24,432 nt of DNA from a virus (IMGVR_UViG_3300020159_002739:1-24432), one strand, 5' to 3'. Shown: positions 11,095 to 19,182, counted from the stretch's first letter. Notes: generated by a model not told the origin, from the sequence alone. Numbers and translations: made by a program.

Positions 11095-14000
11095 TTACCC
11101 ACCCATATAAAGAGAATCAAATGGATCACTCTCATCTCCACCTCCCATTACTAAAGTAGAACCACCCGAAGAGTAATCAGATTGATCATTATTTTGCATT
11201 AAGAGACTACTTGGATCAATAAGGATTTCGTCTGGTGGTCCAAATCCATAGTTACTAAATGATCTTAAAGCATTTGCAAGCTGCTTTTTACTTTTTGATC
11301 CAATAATTGCTGGTAAAGTTCCAGGAGCCATCTCCTCAAGATACTCTGTAATCTTACTTCCGATAACACCTTCAGGTTTCCCTCTTTCACCAAGAATAGC
11401 AGGAGTTAAACCATTAACCATACCACCCTCATCCATCAATCTAACTCCAGCAAACCAACTTGTTCCTGACGCAGAATCCCAGTGCGGTCTATAGTGCCAT
11501 CCTCTTGCTCTATTGTGATCATATTGATTTTTTAAACCATCATCAGCAGCGATACCCACATGAGTAATAGCACCCTTATTATAGCTACCACCAGAGGAAG
11601 TCTGTCTCCACAAAATAATATCACCTGCTCTAATATCACTTTTATTACGAATTATTTGTCCCATATCACTTCCACCAAAAGAAGCTGCAAATGACGGTGC
11701 ATTATATCCAATTCCCTTTGGAGTATCCAAATCACCCCGCTGTGTTCTTTTATTTGCAGATGGGTGTCCTGCTGCTTTTAAAGCTGCTCTAGTTGTATTG
11801 GCACACTGATCTCCAACACCAGCACCCATTCCTATGATCTTTTTAGCACCCTCAAGAATTTGTTTAGCTTTTGGATTCGCTCCAGTTACCCTACCGTCTC
11901 CAACAGATCCAACTGGTCCAATATATGTTCCCGCTCCCTCAGTTGCTTTCCCTTCACCTTTTGCAAGTTTATCAAATATTGGTTTAGACATATTATATCT
12001 TTCCATTATCTTAGATTCAGTTTTATATCCAGCAGGAATCTCATACTGCTGCATAAAGATGGTAGATGCTGCTTTAACATCTTGAGCTTGTTTTATTTGT
12101 TTCAAAACATTTCCATAAGAACCTTGAAATTCTTTAAGAAAAAATTGATATTCAATGTTCATTGAAAGTGGTTTACTTAAATCAGCACCCCTAGACTTTG
12201 CAAAATCGGCAAGAGCTTGTTGCCTTCCCTTAGATGTCCATTGAACCAAACCATAACCAGTGACGCCATCAACCTTCAAGGGTGCTTTAGTGCCAGGGGA
12301 AGATCCTTGAGGTCTAGCATTTTCAACACCAGACTCAGCTGCCATATTACCAACAATGCCAGATGCTTGTGCTGCAGTTAATTTCAAATCCCTCATTAAG
12401 TTTCTAGCCATTGTAAGTTTATCACCACTACTTCCGGCAGGACCAACTTCAAGTCCATCACCACCATCCATAGTTTCTGTGGATTTTTTTTCCTCTTCTT
12501 CCTGCTCCTTTTTCAATCTCAAATTTTCTTCAATCATTTTCAAAGTTTTTTGAGCATTGCTGTCAACACTATCCCTAAAAGTTTTAGAAACCCAATTGGA
12601 AATATCCCCACCTTCAGTGGCAGCAAAAATAGTTTGCGGATCAACCAAACCACCAGTCTGAAATGCTGCAGCAAGACCACCTTTGATTTGTCCTTGTTGC
12701 AATCCTCTAGAAAGTAGCAAGTTAATACCTAGTCCTACATTGTCATAATCTTTTTTATCCGGTTTTTGTCCTAATAATATCTTAGAAGTTAACGCCAGAA
12801 TGGGTCCAAAATAATCAGTTTTTCCAAGATTTTCTCCACCTCTCTTAATAACTTGGAATGGATTCATTACATCAATAACTTTCTTAGCCGCCTTTAAGGG
12901 GTTGGGGAAAAGACCAAAAAGTTTGTCTTCTCCTCCAACATCAGATCCGGGATTATCCATCCCAATATCTCCTGGTTTTTTGGCAAGAGTTCTCTTATAT
13001 TTTTTCATCTTAGCAGATGAAAGTCTTCTTCTTGGCCCACTCTGAGTTTTCCCACCTCTTGTGGGTCCACCCCCAGCTCTTTTTTGAGTTTTTGAAGTTA
13101 CTTTTTTACCACCAAAAAATAAATCATAAATGGCACCTCCAGCCATATCACCAAGAGTTCCCCCAGCAATAGCACCAAGAGCACCGGTAGCTACTGCTAG
13201 AGGTCCTCCAGCAAGACCTAGTGCTCCTGCCAAACCACCACCTATAGTTCCTAATATTGCCGCACCTATTGCCCTGAATGCTGCCCTACCAGGATTTTCC
13301 CCCAATGCCCAAGATAATCCAAAATCTATTAAAGCTCCAACAACAGGAAGAGGTATTCTTTTCAAAAATGGACGAACTGTAGAAAGAACAGTTTTTGCTC
13401 CTCCTCTACCCATAGTGACTTTTGGGCGACCTCTTAAGGGGTTTCTAATATCAACACCACCAGCACGACCGCCACCACTCGTTGTTACTCTAGGTCTACC
13501 TCCACTTCCAGGTCTTGCTCCTCCTCTACCACCTTTACCACCACCAAATCCACCAGACCCAGCAGCAACCATCCCTGCTATGATAGCAAGATTTAAAAAC
13601 TGATTTAATAATCCAGAAAGTTGGTCAAACTGTTTTACGCCATCATTACCAAAAAGATTTTTTACGAATCCTCTAGTTGCATCATAAGCTTTATAACCCC
13701 AATCAACAAAAGTTACAAGTCCATCTAAAAGTTTTCCACCAACATTAAGAACAAAGTCTGTTGCTTGTCCTAAAAATTTGATAATAGGAATTATTTTTGG
13801 CAAATGATCTACTAATCTTACAGCAAAATATCCTAAGATAACATTACCTATAAAGTTTTTTACCCAGTCCAAAAATCCCATTCTAGGAAGACTTGGCATT
13901 TTTATATTACCAGATTCTACCTTTGGTTTTGTCTCTAACTTTTCTTCTATCTTTTCACGTCGTTTAGAACTTTCTTGCTTTTTTGTCTCGTTTAACTTTT

Positions 14001-14190
14001 TCTTTTCCGAAGCTAAAGTCCCCTTCAATATACTATCAATTTCAATTACTTTAACTTTAATAACTCCTATATTCTTTACGGAGTTTTCACTTAGAACAAC
14101 AGAGGAAGATCCTTTAATATTAGTCTTATTAACTTTAGCAAGTACACCACCTTTCGATGATGGTAAAAACTTTTGAGCATTGATTGCCAT
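11095..14190 (-). CDS. Tape-measure-like tail protein with two murein hydrolase domains, 1031 aa
   Basis: Residues 1-100 are highly charged and helical. Residues about 105-170 hold hydrophobic segments (FIGNVILGYFAVRLVDHLPK), 210-260 are a Gly/Arg-rich linker, and 300-355 are a Gly/Ala-rich membrane-like stretch. Residues about 584-740 resemble the phage tail lysozyme family: LTAAQASGIVGNMAAESG with likely catalytic Glu619, then GYGLVQWTSKGR. Residues about 770-905 resemble a CHAP or NlpC/P60-type amidase: GDQCANTTRAAL with Cys796, GDIILWRQ, and GAITHVGIAA with His877. The end has the tape-measure phrase GGMVNGLTPAILGERGKPEG. The likely role is spanning the tail and opening peptidoglycan during infection. 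It starts 7 bases after the 898-aa gene, with TGAGGT before the ATG. Confidence 0.78.
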   Translation of the reverse strand: MAINAQKFLPSSKGGVLAKVNKTNIKGSSSVVLSENSVKNIGVIKVKVIEIDSILKGTLASEKKKLNETKKQESSKRREKIEEKLETKPKVESGNIKMPSLPRMGFLDWVKNFIGNVILGYFAVRLVDHLPKIIPIIKFLGQATDFVLNVGGKLLDGLVTFVDWGYKAYDATRGFVKNLFGNDGVKQFDQLSGLLNQFLNLAIIAGMVAAGSGGFGGGKGGRGGARPGSGGRPRVTTSGGGRAGGVDIRNPLRGRPKVTMGRGGAKTVLSTVRPFLKRIPLPVVGALIDFGLSWALGENPGRAAFRAIGAAILGTIGGGLAGALGLAGGPLAVATGALGAIAGGTLGDMAGGAIYDLFFGGKKVTSKTQKRAGGGPTRGGKTQSGPRRRLSSAKMKKYKRTLAKKPGDIGMDNPGSDVGGEDKLFGLFPNPLKAAKKVIDVMNPFQVIKRGGENLGKTDYFGPILALTSKILLGQKPDKKDYDNVGLGINLLLSRGLQQGQIKGGLAAAFQTGGLVDPQTIFAATEGGDISNWVSKTFRDSVDSNAQKTLKMIEENLRLKKEQEEEEKKSTETMDGGDGLEVGPAGSSGDKLTMARNLMRDLKLTAAQASGIVGNMAAESGVENARPQGSSPGTKAPLKVDGVTGYGLVQWTSKGRQQALADFAKSRGADLSKPLSMNIEYQFFLKEFQGSYGNVLKQIKQAQDVKAASTIFMQQYEIPAGYKTESKIMERYNMSKPIFDKLAKGEGKATEGAGTYIGPVGSVGDGRVTGANPKAKQILEGAKKIIGMGAGVGDQCANTTRAALKAAGHPSANKRTQRGDLDTPKGIGYNAPSFAASFGGSDMGQIIRNKSDIRAGDIILWRQTSSGGSYNKGAITHVGIAADDGLKNQYDHNRARGWHYRPHWDSASGTSWFAGVRLMDEGGMVNGLTPAILGERGKPEGVIGSKITEYLEEMAPGTLPAIIGSKSKKQLANALRSFSNYGFGPPDEILIDPSSLLMQNNDQSDYSSGGSTLVMGGGDESDPFDSLYMGG

Positions 14191-14197
14191 CTTTTTA

Positions 14198-16894
14198 TTA
14201 CCTCATCATCCCTAGAGTTTGTTGTTTTGATCTCATTCCATTTGTAGTTGCATTAAAACTGGGGACTTTAGTTTTTGAACTTCCTCCTCTAGAGGATGTA
14301 GACTGATTACCTCTGGGTTTCACATAAGTAACTTTTGGTTTAGGTTTTACTGATTTATTAATGGCAGCAGACTTGGGTTTTGTTGCTGCTATCTGTGCTT
14401 GTTTTTGTTTGATTACTTTTGATCCTCCCCCAAACCAACCCAACTTATCATACCAAGATCTTTGAGATTTGACTTTTTCTTCGTTAGATCTCTTTTTAGC
14501 AAGCTTAGTAGCTTCAGCTCTCATTTTAGATTGCTCTGCTGCCATTTGTGCCTTTGTCTTTTGTCTTCCTGTTTTGGGATCTAAACTATTCCTATTAACA
14601 GTTCCTATCTTGATTTCACTACCAAGTGCCCTTTGATTCAACCAACCTATATCTTGGGCAAATCTTCCCAACATAGATGCCCCAAAATATGTTGCATCAC
14701 TTACAGAACCTTTCATTAATCCTTGTTTTGCTAGTTCTGCATACTCAGATACAGTTCTATTGAAGTTATATCTATCATCACTATAGAGAGTATTTCCACC
14801 GCCAGGTTTTGTACTTGCAGAAAATCTTCCAAGAATAGAATTAAAAGAAGATCCTCTTGGTCCAAGATCATCTGTATATGCACCACCACCTTTTGCTCCC
14901 TTATTGATGTCTTCTTGATTCCAGTTCATTCTAACTTGCCCCGTTTTAGGGTCAACATCCAATCCACTTTTACCCATAGTTTTTTCTATGGTCTTTTGTC
15001 TCATTTCATCAACTTCCTTATTAGAAAGAATTTTAAAAGGTCTTCCCATAGGACCCAGAAGAGCTTTCATAAAAGTCAAATTTCTCATCATAGTAGCATT
15101 ACCACTTGGAATCGGTATTAATCCTTTATCAGCCATTTCTTTGAATGGACCATCTGGTAATTTTTGGATGAACTTGTCACCAAGAGAAATCATCTTGCCC
15201 TGAACCTTTTCCATTCCAGCAGCGCCCTGCTGATATGATTTTGATGAACCCATTTTCTTAAAGGCATCAAAAAATCCAACACCTGCTTTTTTAGGAATCC
15301 CCGCAGCCGTATTAGCCGCATCCATCGCTTTCTTTTGTATCTTGCCAGATTGAATATCAGATAGTGCTTGATTCCCAACTTTCAAAGCTTGATCATAAAG
15401 TCCGGCACCAAATTGAGTACCAGACTGCATGAGTTTAGATATATCTTTTTGAAGTCCACCACCCTGCAAATACTTTTGACTTTGTGCTGCAATATTCATT
15501 CCAGCATTTCCAATGCCAGACAAAGATCCACCAACTGAAGATTGAGCTTGTCTGGACATCTTATCTAAAAATCCAGTATATGTTTTTGGATCTTGAACAT
15601 TGATACCTTGACTTCTAAACCAGGTATCAATATCAATAACATGTTTTCTCATGTCACCAATATTACCTATTCCACCTCCACCTGCAGCATAAGTAGTTCC
15701 TCTAACAATTTTTGGTTTGTTAGTTCCTCCACCGGCAGCATTCATTGCCTCTAGAGTTCCAAGTCCCCATGTCTCTACAGCTCCACGAGACATAACAAAC
15801 TCACCATCACTAAGCATTGCGGGGATTTTATCTACACCTTTTTCCCCACTTACAAATCCATTGGCAAACCCACCACCAGAAAATGCTCTAGCAAGTCCCC
15901 CACCATTGAGCATTCCACCAAAACCACGCTGCAGAACCTGTTCTCTTTGCAGTTGAGCGGCTCCAGGAGTTCCTTGCCCGGGTTTTACACCTTCTCGTTT
16001 CTGCTCATTTTGTTGAGATGCAGCATAAGCACCTACGCCTCCAGCAACAGCTAAAGAAGCGACAGGATTTCTAGCAACAAGTCTTAAAAGAGCTGGTATT
16101 GCAACTTTACCAATACGGAAGATAAATCCTCCCACCATTTTGGTTAACCCTAAGGTGAACCTACCAAAAGAAGTTCCAAATAAAATATAAGAACTGAGGA
16201 GTGCTGGCCACCAATCTTTTACAAAACGAATAATGGACTTAACTTTACTTTCGTTTTTAGGATCACCTAACCACTCAACAAGTTTATAAACTATTCTTCC
16301 AAGTATGATATTTGTAAAGAATTCAACTACCCTATCAAGTAAAGATTTTACCGGCGCTATTATTTTTTCAGCAATTTTCTTTAAACCTTCAAATCTTTTT
16401 TCAAGTTTACTTTCAGCAAGTCCTCTTTTTTCCTGCTCTGCTTTTCTTCTATCATAAGCAGATGCATCATCAGATATTTTTTTCTGTTGCCTTAAAGTAT
16501 CACTTATCGAAACTATGGCAGAAGTGATTGCAGAAATATTACCTTCTAAACTTTTAGCTAATGGAGAAGCACTAATAGAAGTTCCAGGTAGAGCTTTAGT
16601 TGCTGTTCCTGCTATTTTTCCCTTTACGCTACCAACAGTAAATGATTTGCCAGATATCTTTTTCTTCTTTACTTCAAATCTACCTTTGTCTTTTTTGCTT
16701 TTAACTCTTTTATACTCATCAGTTAAAAGCATAACCTCTTCGGTAGGAATTGTTTTTTTGGTCATCCTACCCTTGACCATTGCCTCTTTAATAAGAGTCA
16801 AATAAGTTTCATAATCTAAATCAAAAACATCATCAAGCCCGATGAGCCTTAAAATTCTAACATCAATTTCTTCTTTTTGATTAGAAATGGGCAT
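14198..16894 (-). CDS. Tape-measure-like tail protein, 898 aa
   Basis: The N-terminal 150 residues are charged and helical. Then come a coiled-coil-like stretch (about 140-180), hydrophobic segments (FFTNIILGRIVYKLVEWL near 195, SSYILFGTSFGRFTLGL near 235, and ARNPVASLAVAGGVGAYAAS near 280), and a Gly-rich middle with the tape-measure hallmark GVDKIPAMLSDGEFVMSRGA (near 345-365). Helices and a basic, Lys/Ser-rich tail follow. In T4 the tape measure is gp29 (590 aa), encoded after genes 26, 51, 27 and 28. Here two large proteins take that place directly after the gp26-like chaperone region. No enzyme motif is seen. The start overlaps the preceding short frame by 14 bases, so translation is probably coupled. 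Confidence 0.7.
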   Translation of the reverse strand: MPISNQKEEIDVRILRLIGLDDVFDLDYETYLTLIKEAMVKGRMTKKTIPTEEVMLLTDEYKRVKSKKDKGRFEVKKKKISGKSFTVGSVKGKIAGTATKALPGTSISASPLAKSLEGNISAITSAIVSISDTLRQQKKISDDASAYDRRKAEQEKRGLAESKLEKRFEGLKKIAEKIIAPVKSLLDRVVEFFTNIILGRIVYKLVEWLGDPKNESKVKSIIRFVKDWWPALLSSYILFGTSFGRFTLGLTKMVGGFIFRIGKVAIPALLRLVARNPVASLAVAGGVGAYAASQQNEQKREGVKPGQGTPGAAQLQREQVLQRGFGGMLNGGGLARAFSGGGFANGFVSGEKGVDKIPAMLSDGEFVMSRGAVETWGLGTLEAMNAAGGGTNKPKIVRGTTYAAGGGGIGNIGDMRKHVIDIDTWFRSQGINVQDPKTYTGFLDKMSRQAQSSVGGSLSGIGNAGMNIAAQSQKYLQGGGLQKDISKLMQSGTQFGAGLYDQALKVGNQALSDIQSGKIQKKAMDAANTAAGIPKKAGVGFFDAFKKMGSSKSYQQGAAGMEKVQGKMISLGDKFIQKLPDGPFKEMADKGLIPIPSGNATMMRNLTFMKALLGPMGRPFKILSNKEVDEMRQKTIEKTMGKSGLDVDPKTGQVRMNWNQEDINKGAKGGGAYTDDLGPRGSSFNSILGRFSASTKPGGGNTLYSDDRYNFNRTVSEYAELAKQGLMKGSVSDATYFGASMLGRFAQDIGWLNQRALGSEIKIGTVNRNSLDPKTGRQKTKAQMAAEQSKMRAEATKLAKKRSNEEKVKSQRSWYDKLGWFGGGSKVIKQKQAQIAATKPKSAAINKSVKPKPKVTYVKPRGNQSTSSRGGSSKTKVPSFNATTNGMRSKQQTLGMMR

Positions 16895-17069
16895 TGCTCA
16901 TCTGTTGTTTTTGTTTTAACTCTTCATCTTCAAGATGCTGTTGTAATAAAGCAACATAGATGTCTCGTTCCCAAGGCATCATATTCTCAATATCTGCTAA
17001 TGAATATTTATGATACTGCATTAACGAAAAATTGAGACGAAAATAATTTTCAAGGTCCATATGGACCAT
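16881..17069 (-). CDS. gp51/GT-like short tail assembly frame, 62 aa; likely -1 extension of the gp26-like protein
   Basis: The frame starts ATG at 17069, with a second ATG at 17060 that is better spaced from the preceding AGGG. The product carries MDLENYFRLNFSLMQYHKYS and the motif MMPWERDIYVALLQQHLEDE, and ends in a Gln/Lys-rich tail. Short frames with an MPW-x-R-x-x-Y-type motif just before the tape-measure gene are typical of the second tail assembly chaperone. Its frame is -1 relative to the gp26-like gene and stays open back to a TGA four codons before a slippery T6C run. It can therefore be made as a 65-residue extension giving a 303-aa fusion, with or without independent initiation. 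It corresponds in map position to T4 gene 51. Confidence 0.72.
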   Translation of the reverse strand: MVHMDLENYFRLNFSLMQYHKYSLADIENMMPWERDIYVALLQQHLEDEELKQKQQMSNAHF

Positions 17070-17097
17070 CCCTATGCGAAAAAAGATGCTAAGCCCT
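17049..17097 (-). promoter_or_regulatory. Putative programmed -1 ribosomal frameshift signal
   Basis: In the frame of the gp26-like gene the heptamer T-TTT-TTC occupies 17084-17078, a canonical X-XXY-YYZ site. A Shine-Dalgarno-like GAGGG lies about 9-10 nt upstream, as in dnaX. The perfect palindrome GGTCCATATGGACC (17067-17054), able to form a 5-bp stem with an ATAT loop, starts 10 nt downstream. The 0-frame stop TAG is at 17074-17072. The -1 frame has a TGA eight codons before the shift region ends and is open from there to 16881. Confidence 0.7.
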
Positions 17098-17791
17098 CAA
17101 GCACAACTTCACTTTCAATTTCGGTTACTGGATTTTTAACATTAATAGTATGAGAAAGTTTGGGCATAGTCTCAAAGAACTTTTCAATATCTTTGAACTG
17201 AGAAGAGTTCATTGACTCTAGAAAATCGCCAAGTTCTTTTTTGGAAACATCAGCGGTAGCCCAAACTTCATCTTCAGTAAAAATCTTATCAATACAAGAT
17301 GCGATTAAATCAAATGATTGATCCATTGCATTCTTATCATTAAAATCAAAGTTACTCTTAATAAACTGATCCAAAGATGGATACTTCATTTCCATCATAA
17401 TAGATTCATCTACTTTGATTCTCTTACTATGTTCATCATTTTTCTGAACTTGAATATCATCAAGATTGATTTTCACAGGCACTTGTGTTTCACCATCATC
17501 TGGACAAATAATATTAACCTCAATCTCTTCTCCAACAGACTTACCGCGAATATTTAAAAACAAATACTCAATATCAAATGTGGGAAGTGCTTCTACTTTA
17601 ATATTCTTTGTTAGAATACAGTTTTTAATAACTGTTTTAATTGCTGTTGTGATTTGCTTCGTATCTTCACTTTCTAAAGCAATCACAAGTAGTTTTTCTT
17701 CCTTGACAAGAAAAGGTCTATATTGAATTGTTTCTCCTGTTGATGGCAATTCAAGTTCATATGATGGTGTTGCAATCTTTGGTAAAGGCAT
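17072..17791 (-). CDS. 26: gp26-like baseplate hub / tail assembly chaperone
   Basis: This is a 239-aa protein of the T4 gp26-like baseplate family (T4 gp26 has 208 residues). It begins MPLPKIATPSYELELPSTGE and continues with the family signature YRPFLVKEEKLLVIALES. A domain with NIRGKSVGEEIEVNIICPDD and VPVKINLDDI follows, then a helical C-terminal half (SLDQFIKSNFDFNDKNAMDQ, FLESMNSSQFKDIEKFF). It is the first gene of the hub and tape-measure operon, directly behind a perfect late promoter, with AGGA before the ATG. Position before the tape-measure genes and the -1 frameshift signal at its end suggest it acts as the gpG-type chaperone of tape-measure assembly. That role is inferred; the family match is the firmer statement. 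Confidence 0.82.
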   Translation of the reverse strand: MPLPKIATPSYELELPSTGETIQYRPFLVKEEKLLVIALESEDTKQITTAIKTVIKNCILTKNIKVEALPTFDIEYLFLNIRGKSVGEEIEVNIICPDDGETQVPVKINLDDIQVQKNDEHSKRIKVDESIMMEMKYPSLDQFIKSNFDFNDKNAMDQSFDLIASCIDKIFTEDEVWATADVSKKELGDFLESMNSSQFKDIEKFFETMPKLSHTINVKNPVTEIESEVVLEGLASFFA

Positions 17792-17899: not shown

Positions 17900-18151
17900 A
17901 TGACTAAGGCAATGCGTCAGTTCTTTTTTGGTTTAGTGTTCCTCTATGGAGTTGGTCTTTCAACTTACTTTGCTTCTTGGGGGGTCCGTGATATGCAAGC
18001 ACTAGAAAAAGCAGTTTCGGTGGGAGCTCAACACGAAGAGATGCGACATCGGTTAAATGTCTCCGCAGAAGGAAACTGGTTTCTATTGGCAAACTTGATT
18101 GCAGTAACTGGTGCTCTTGGCACGATTGGAACCTCTAAAAAAGATGATTAA
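17900..18151 (+). CDS. Small membrane protein, 83 aa, two predicted transmembrane segments
   Basis: The protein begins MTKAMRQFFFGLVFLYGVGL. Residues about 7-29 form a first hydrophobic segment; 30-56 are a charged, helical stretch (MQALEKAVSVGAQHEEMRH); 57-78 form a second segment (WFLLANLIAVTGALGTIG); the end is KKDD. Both ends probably lie on the cytoplasmic side, by charge. It stands alone with the next gene on the plus strand between two minus-strand tail genes, has a consensus ribosome binding site, and is closed by a strong terminator, which is the layout of a self-contained accessory cassette. The function is not recognised; action on the host membrane or lysis timing are possible guesses without direct support. 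Confidence 0.75.
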   Translation: MTKAMRQFFFGLVFLYGVGLSTYFASWGVRDMQALEKAVSVGAQHEEMRHRLNVSAEGNWFLLANLIAVTGALGTIGTSKKDD

Positions 18152-18275: not shown

Positions 18276-18302
18276 AAGAGGGTCTTCGGACCCTCTTTTT
18301 TT
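18276..18302. terminator. Strong bidirectional intrinsic terminator with UUCG loop
   Basis: A perfect stem AAGAGGGTC/GACCCTCTT closes a TTCG tetraloop and is followed by seven T on the plus strand. On the minus strand the same stem is followed by a shorter T-run. It ends the plus-strand membrane cassette and lies immediately downstream of the stop codon of the gp54-like gene on the minus strand, so it serves both convergent units. Confidence 0.9.
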
Positions 18303-19182
18303 ATATACCAGCAAACCTAGCAGTAGGTCCTCTATTCCTTCCAACATAAGGAAGTCCTGCTTCAACTCTTCTATCAATAGCATTGCCCGATGCATCTGCT
18401 GCAGAAGTAGGAACTCCACCAGTTGATAATGCACCAGCACCCTCAAGACCAGGTAAAGCCATATCACTTGTACTGAACTGAGCATTATTAAATGCTGCTT
18501 GTTGTTCTGGAGTTGCTGGTTGTTGAGATTGACCATTCATCGGTGACGTACCCTGAACCAACACATATCTTAGATATGTCATTGATACTGTACACTTTAA
18601 CAACGAAGAAGAATCATAAGAAACTGGCATTGAAGAAACGCTGATTGGAAAACTTCCAATAAATTGATACTCTAAACTATTACCAGTCATCTCAAAGTCT
18701 CTCTCAAATTTTCTAACGACTAATCCCTGCTTAGCAACATAATCATCGGGATATCTAACCCTATAAAAGTATTCCATAGATTGAGACCCAGCACCCTTAT
18801 CGGGATCTTCAGCAATACTTTCATTTACAATATACTTAACCCAAGTTTCAAAATAACGAATAGGCAAATAGTTCTGTGCATCAACATAGAATGTTAGATC
18901 TATCCTATCATCATAGACTCTTCTATAAGCATGTCTTTCAGTAACGCCGTGAAAGTCGCTTGTGAGTTCTAATGTAGCTAGATTAGATCCAGGCAAAGTT
19001 GCTTCGCTACATAAAAAGTTTACCCTATCCAATCCCAAAGGTCCCATATTGGGAACATTATCTTTCAAAAATTGAGCCCACTTTTCTCCACTCGGTTGAG
19101 GAATCTGAACTTCAAAGTGAGAAGTTAGGGCAGGTCTAAGTAAGTTTGATTTTATTTCTGCTAAAGTTTTTGCCCTTGGCAT
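18301..19182 (-). CDS. 54: gp54-like baseplate tail tube initiator
   Basis: This is a 293-aa protein (T4 gp54 has 320). The first half has the tail-tube-type pattern: LTSHFEVQIPQPSG, CSEATLPGSNL, then VTERHAYRRVYDDRIDLTFY and RYFETWVKYIVNE (residues about 75-125), as in gp54 and gp19 relatives. The middle (YRVRYPDDYVA, FPISVSSMPVSYD, KCTVSMTYLRYVLV) completes the tube-like fold. The last 80 residues are a Gln/Ala/Gly-rich tail ending RNRGPTARFAGI. In T4, gp54 and gp48 nucleate tube polymerisation on the baseplate; gp48 is encoded nearby. The gene is divergent from gp4 and has no clear Shine-Dalgarno sequence before its ATG. A tube paralogue is the alternative reading. Confidence 0.68.
   Translation of the reverse strand: MPRAKTLAEIKSNLLRPALTSHFEVQIPQPSGEKWAQFLKDNVPNMGPLGLDRVNFLCSEATLPGSNLATLELTSDFHGVTERHAYRRVYDDRIDLTFYVDAQNYLPIRYFETWVKYIVNESIAEDPDKGAGSQSMEYFYRVRYPDDYVAKQGLVVRKFERDFEMTGNSLEYQFIGSFPISVSSMPVSYDSSSLLKCTVSMTYLRYVLVQGTSPMNGQSQQPATPEQQAAFNNAQFSTSDMALPGLEGAGALSTGGVPTSAADASGNAIDRRVEAGLPYVGRNRGPTARFAGI

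Follow-up and report, generated by a model that had tools for sequence, protein, structure and literature searches.

A predicted programmed -1 frameshift connects gp26-like and gp51-like tail assembly chaperone frames in a T4-like phage

The junction between the gp26-like and gp51-like frames

We analysed a DNA fragment of 24,432 nucleotides (nt) from a marine T4-like virus (IMGVR_UViG_3300020159_002739, called the window here and meant at its full length), in which a gp26-like open reading frame (ORF) on the minus strand runs into a gp51-like frame that lies in the -1 phase. Sequence comparison makes it very likely (we put the probability at roughly 0.92) that a programmed -1 ribosomal frameshift on the heptamer T TTT TTC yields a short and a long tail assembly chaperone (TAC), in the manner of the G and GT proteins of phage lambda, and this would hold for hundreds of relatives as well. 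A fusion of this kind had been proposed in an earlier, sequence-only reading of the window, and the core of that proposal held up: the heptamer was kept at 268 of the 269 gp26 ends surveyed and the fusion matched T4 gp51 across the junction. The heptamer, the GAGGG, TGA and TAG elements and the hairpin were all located on the minus strand where that reading had placed them, and the length of 303 amino acids (aa) that it gave for the fusion was reproduced by computation (238 + 65 aa). The elements of the junction are:

17072..17791, minus strand: gp26-like ORF, 239 aa, the predicted short chaperone form (TAC-N, counterpart of lambda gpG); from Pfam, PHROG and HHalign
17097..17099, minus strand: last upstream -1-frame stop TGA, which limits where joining can occur; from sequence
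17094..17098, minus strand: Shine-Dalgarno (SD)-like GAGGG, 9 nt upstream of the heptamer, a candidate element; from sequence
17078..17084, minus strand: slippery heptamer T TTT TTC, in the 0-frame phase X XXY YYZ; from sequence, kept at homologous junctions
17072..17074, minus strand: 0-frame stop TAG, after one GCA codon past the heptamer; from sequence
17058..17069, minus strand: possible independent starts ATG 17069 and ATG 17060; from sequence and relatives
17054..17067, minus strand: hairpin GGTCC-ATAT-GGACC, 10 nt downstream of the heptamer; from fold and covariation
16881..17078, minus strand: -1-frame extension RIGMVHMDLENYF...NAHF, 65 aa plus stop, gp51-like, predicted counterpart of lambda T; from PHROG, HHalign and selection

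The gp26-like ORF, the one gp26-like match in this record (a 24-kb fragment), belongs to PF12322 (T4_baseplate, E 4.7e-76 in Pfam) and to phrog_150 (baseplate hub, E 5.2e-80), and its 3' end reads ...GAG GGC TTA GCA TCT TTT TTC GCA TAG. The -1 frame, which terminates at the stop at 16883-16881 on the minus strand, matches phrog_634 (baseplate hub assembly catalyst, E 6.9e-28) and in addition columns 241-281 of the 282 columns of the phrog_150 profile, which hints that the phrog_150 family may contain fused sequences. The junction peptide predicted for the window is ...ASFFR / IGMVHMDLENYFR.

Conservation of the slippery heptamer

The 269 gp26 ends of the junction survey were taken from IMG/VR loci and annotated phage records, with isolates from hosts that include Synechococcus, Prochlorococcus, Methylophilales, Sinorhizobium, Vibrio, Cronobacter and Aeromonas. 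At the 268 junctions that carry T TTT TTN the codon phase is identical and, as in the window, a 0-frame stop follows within a few codons. The last base of the heptamer is C in 190, A in 53, T in 24 and G in 1 of them; an A converts the 0-frame Phe to Leu, yet the six T's are retained. The codon ahead of TTT can be any of eight (AGT, AAT, TCT, GAT, GGT, GCT, CAT or ACT), all of which end in T, and the Ser codons alternate between TCT and AGT, an exchange that needs two changes, with the final T kept. Among 70 codon-aligned close relatives the Phe codons of the site are TTT in 70/70 and TTC in 70/70, whereas most other conserved Phe columns are mixed, and elsewhere within the 269 gp26 ORFs a run of six T's (T6) in heptamer phase occurs 22 times in total. 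TTTTTTC as such is not unusual in the window (15 occurrences against 17.8 expected from shuffles), so that the case rests on the position of the heptamer and on its conservation. The sequence-only reading had pointed to loss of the heptamer or of the -1 frame in close relatives as the outcome that would speak against it; both persist, in close as well as in distant relatives.

A run of T's might also be taken as a site of transcriptional slippage, in which a base is inserted or skipped by RNA polymerase and the edited messengers encode the fusion; the site is indeed a T homopolymer and 23 relatives have a run of eight. The run is exactly six T's long at 244 of the 268 junctions, however, and a run of six is short for slippage by a bacterial polymerase. 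Transcriptional slippage would not need the fixed phase T TTT TTN either, and the covarying hairpin downstream (described below) suits ribosomal frameshifting. We consider the transcriptional alternative highly improbable, since codon phase, run length and hairpin all argue for slippage of the ribosome.

TTTTTTC was also present in three phages outside the 269 count (Aeh1, phage 65.2 and R10Z) and in the 469-kb jumbo Sinorhizobium phage Phosso (L092, 3240-3489; likewise outside the count), where a distant gp26-like protein ends in CATTTTTTCGAATGA. The -1 frame of Phosso is open and encodes a different-looking extension. The Vibrio D479 protein, used as a query, retrieved no relatives from IMG/VR.

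Comparison with T4 gp26 and gp51

Another line of evidence comes from T4 itself, where gp26 (208 aa) and gp51 (249 aa) are encoded by divergent genes without a slippery site. HHalign aligned the 303-aa fusion with T4 gp51 (99.5%, E 4.5e-23; fusion 11-286 on gp51 5-252, 244 columns spanning the junction) and the unshifted protein with the T4 gp26 family (99.7%, E 4.3e-26). The C-terminal tail alone aligned with the C terminus of T4 gp51 (E 2.1e-10) and gave no match to T4 gp26 in profile comparison; the two T4 proteins are paralogous (E 6.3e-18 in profile comparison). The polypeptide predicted from the frameshift therefore exists in T4 as an ordinary gene product.

The T4-type genes also provide a natural control. 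T6 was absent in all 12 of the 12 T4-type gp26 genes that have a separate gp51, and in 8 of these the Phe-Phe pair is coded TTC TTT. Keeping the two Phe residues is not enough to impose the heptamer. In the same 12 genes the -1 frame either is closed or continues into gene 25, the next gene, and not into gp51.

Both arrangements, frameshift and two genes, occur within the Straboviridae, which suggests that the frameshift is ancestral and the T4 duplication derived. A fuller scenario, to which we give even odds, is that the T TTT TTN frameshift was ancestral in the T4 supergroup, that a duplication in the Straboviridae fixed the two forms as gene 26 (short) and gene 51 (long) and the slippery site decayed, T4 being derived, and that hairpin stimulators arose separately in different frameshifting lineages. 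The tree of short and long forms does not settle the order of events, because it is unrooted and has long branches. In T4 the same two proteins are the products of separate genes, which makes the pair a clean test case for the effect of the short-to-long ratio on contractile-tail assembly.

Selection on the -1 frame and possible internal starts

Over the six codons past the 0-frame stop, the ratio of nonsynonymous to synonymous polymorphism (pN/pS) in six clades was 0.29, 0.12, 0.26, 0.37, 0.16 and 0.72 in the -1 frame, compared with 1.12, 1.03, 1.77, 1.38, 0.94 and 0.86 in the 0 frame, the sixth clade being weak (0.72 versus 0.86). At the codon directly after the heptamer the 0-frame residue varies (A/G/V/E/D), while in the -1 frame almost all loci have Arg there, or Arg/Ser if the heptamer ends in A. 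These patterns strongly support purifying selection on the -1 frame from its first codons onward, as would be expected if it is read as an extension, and the constraint reaches upstream of the ATG codons.

The same data bear on the alternative that the locus consists of two cistrons, in which the gp51-like product starts at ATG 17069 or ATG 17060, through translational coupling or reinitiation, and T6 is incidental. In the window such an arrangement looks plausible, as ATG 17069 lies 2 nt past the TAG with GAGGG upstream, ATG 17060 is kept in close relatives, and database annotation takes this form (e.g. in P-SSM2). Nevertheless, the start at 17069 is not conserved: of 77 distinct close relatives, 47 have an ATG at this site and the other 30 a Leu codon. 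Among 226 distinct loci 92 lack an ATG, and 70 lack any ATG, GTG or TTG, in the first 12 codons of the -1 frame. Independent initiation thus cannot be the general route to the -1 domain, and the sequence-only reading, which had listed purely independent initiation at 17069/17060 among the outcomes that would speak against it, is not contradicted on this point. Constraint upstream of the ATGs, the T6 phase kept across the surveyed junctions and the homology of the whole fusion to T4 gp51 speak against two cistrons as well, and we find this explanation very unlikely.

Internal initiation might still operate next to frameshifting. Given the conservation of ATG 17060, which is located at the edge of the hairpin loop, an extra free gp51-like product (a free T product) is possible in this cyanophage clade, where gp26, the fusion and the free domain would then all be used. 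As an addition to the frameshift and not an alternative to it, this seems doubtful: the conserved Met can be explained by amino-acid and hairpin constraint, and an early ATG of any kind is mostly missing in clades C, D, E and G.

Hairpin and Shine-Dalgarno-like stretch

The hairpin GGTCC-ATAT-GGACC has a fold energy of -8.3 kcal/mol and covaries in the clade of the window (73 distinct sequences), with double changes in 5/5 pairs and 85% of cells paired. This pairing lies above that of all 500 shuffles, and slid versions reached 53% or less. Compared with synonymous recodings, the 35 nt past the heptamer folded more stably in four clades as well as in the mixed phage-record set (mean z -1.2 to -1.7), and showed no such excess stability in the Melnitz-like, E and LPCS28-like groups. 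A downstream stem-loop is absent in clades D, E and G, and other clades have hairpins in other registers. The hairpin was part of the frameshift cassette put forward in the sequence-only reading; that part stands for the clade of the window, where it covaries, but does not extend to the clades that lack it. Being kept by selection in one clade and absent in others, it would be a lineage-specific stimulator outside the universal core, and the putative stimulators differ between lineages in register and spacing.

In a different clade (L163, L170, L187, L190 and others) we observed hairpins of 7-8 bp with compensatory variants, for instance GGCTCTC-ACAT-GAGAGCC, 5 nt past the heptamer.

An SD-like core (GAGG or AAGG) is found 9-10 nt upstream of the heptamer in most loci. 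This motif is not separable from coding, because it is largely implied by conserved Glu-Gly codons. In the window (17098-17093) and 70 close relatives from clade A this Glu-Gly pair is written GAA GGG or GAG GGN and never GAA with GGA, GGC or GGT, a pattern for which common descent and selection favouring a purine-rich core are both possible reasons.

Fold of the short form and points against the frameshift

An AlphaFold2 model of the gp26-like protein (mean predicted local distance difference test score 87.5) was compared with solved structures. For residues 1-96 of the model, VIA-align gave as best match the HK97 tail assembly chaperone gp13 (2ob9; Z 7.9, 84 residues, 4.0 A), followed by 3fgx (Z 7.8) and YqbN (3klu; Z 7.3), both of which we take to be TAC-type proteins; the next row had a Z of 4.9. 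Foldseek against the PDB returned nothing at E below 0.1 for the same model, with 2ob9 in third place at E 0.7, so the TACs are set apart by VIA-align and not by Foldseek. A gp26 profile gave weak, unrelated matches only among the sequences of solved structures, and the NCBIfam model 'phage tail assembly chaperone G' matched below threshold (E 0.06). A model of T4 gp51 shows the helix and strand order of the gp26 model plus three C-terminal helices. Taken together, the structural comparisons are moderate evidence that the gp26-like short form would adopt a TAC fold.

Several observations weigh against the frameshift reading or its lambda-like interpretation. The Z values for the TAC fold are just under 8, a level reachable by chance, and VIA-align with the T4 gp51 model retrieved no TAC, so that the fold evidence comes from the gp26 model. 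The ATG at the 17060 site is kept in 73 of the 77 distinct close relatives. The identification of the 898-aa downstream gene as the tape measure is weakly supported by its sequence matches (listed below). Finally, Vibrio phage K368 is the sole surveyed gp26 end without a T6 heptamer.

In K368 (L091, 2600-2720) gp26 ends in CTTTTCAAG TAA, the -1 frame remains open, with an ATG shortly past the stop; this phage may use reinitiation or another slip site.

Proposed mechanism and relation to known systems

In the mechanism that we propose, most ribosomes would finish the gp26-like ORF at TAG and release the 239-aa short form, and a minority would slip one base back on T TTT TTC with tRNA-Phe, aided in this clade by the small hairpin and perhaps by the upstream SD-like stretch. 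The slipped ribosomes would read 65 codons in the -1 frame to give the 303-aa long form. If lambda gpG/gpGT is a guide, the tape measure protein would be coated by the N-terminal portion common to both forms, and tail-tube subunits would be brought in by the tail encoded in the -1 frame; the corresponding T4 proteins are gp26 for the short and gp51 for the long form, each from its own gene. Both the efficiency of the frameshift and the molecular roles of the two forms are inferred.

The lambda system resembles the window locus in the order of tail-tube gene, chaperone and probable tape-measure gene (reviewed in PMC5009743). In both, a -1 shift (predicted in the window) near the end of the first ORF gives a short and a C-terminally extended long form, and the -1 frame has no conserved start of its own. 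The likeness is one of layout; the window protein is larger (239 aa) and its heptamer is of the type T TTT TTN, whereas that of lambda is G GGA AAG. In the Vandenendeviridae and Andersonviridae (e.g. Pseudomonas phage Adele, PMC12846349) a conserved GTTTTT likewise ends TAC-N and is followed by an open -1 frame. These phages form another group, likened here by motif and frame. The dnaX gene of Escherichia coli, whose signal consists of an SD-like element, an A-rich heptamer and a hairpin, has the upstream element, heptamer and downstream hairpin in the same arrangement; the window differs in its heptamer (UUUUUUC), its shorter and lineage-specific hairpin and the putative nature of its SD-like element. 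T4 gp26 and gp51 correspond to the short form and to the whole of the predicted fusion, respectively; unlike the window pair, they are encoded by two genes of divergent orientation that lack a slippery site.

The G/GT frameshift has been described as widely conserved in long-tailed phages 'except T4' (PMC5009743). According to a later paper, Vladimirov, Gautam and Davidson identified TAC genes of T4-like phages in 2022 (Virology 566:9-15), and some of these phages have separate short and longer fused genes instead of frameshifting (PMC10274946). The same work is cited in PMC12846349 for -1 signals of the poly-T type in the TAC-N genes of T4-like phages. As these citing papers attest TAC frameshifts in T4-like phages, the locus belongs to a known kind, and going by their accounts it is of the frameshifting type. 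The sequence-only reading had regarded the arrangement as missing from standard annotation of cyanophages, and in the phage records examined we indeed found no joined coding sequence at the junction; the idea itself is not new, however, if PMC10274946 and PMC12846349 are followed in what they say of Vladimirov et al. 2022. No report of a cyanophage frameshift turned up in the literature searched. Our analysis adds the extent and depth of the conservation, the covariation of the hairpin, T4 as a control and an explanation for two older puzzles.

These puzzles were described by Sullivan et al. 2010 (PMC3037559), who noted that gp51 of cyanophages has about 20% of the normal length, with the first ~200 residues 'missing', and that gp51 is 'missing' in Aeh1. 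A frameshift would explain both oddities: the missing part of gp51 is gp26 itself, joined by the shift, and gp51 of Aeh1 lies behind the heptamer, Aeh1 having TTTTTTC and, in the gap that follows gp26, a -1 frame without annotation. The C-terminal domain is omitted or truncated in many cyanophage and T4-like records.

No gene is annotated over the -1 frame in S-PRM1, LPCS28, Ah1, S-WAM2, ACG-2014e, DSL-LC03, Aeh1 and 65.2. The phage-record loci without an annotated gp51-like domain in this frame are L289 (Aeh1, 1378-1543), L086, L088, L090, L095, L097, L098 and L290.

Neighbouring genes

Two neighbours of the chaperone locus place it among tail genes:

18301..19182, minus strand: tail-tube gene, upstream of the chaperone locus; Pfam Phage_TTP_2 (E 1.5e-12) and phrog_45 tail tube (E 2.8e-32)
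14198..16894, minus strand: 898-aa gene, putative tape measure, downstream; phrog_23013 tape measure (E 2.3e-4)

The 898-aa gene also matches phrog_35029, a family of unknown function, with E 4.4e-77. Its product and that of the gene at 11095-14190, consecutive large tail proteins, resemble each other in a hydrophobic region at the N terminus (29% over 85 aa, E 3e-4), which is possibly a tape-measure-like segment that was duplicated; the 11095-14190 product carries the tail lysozyme domain PF18013. Between the tail-tube gene and gp26 lies an 83-aa ORF with a hydrophobic start on the plus strand (17900-18151), which was found in one of ~270 related loci (L056, 84% identity).

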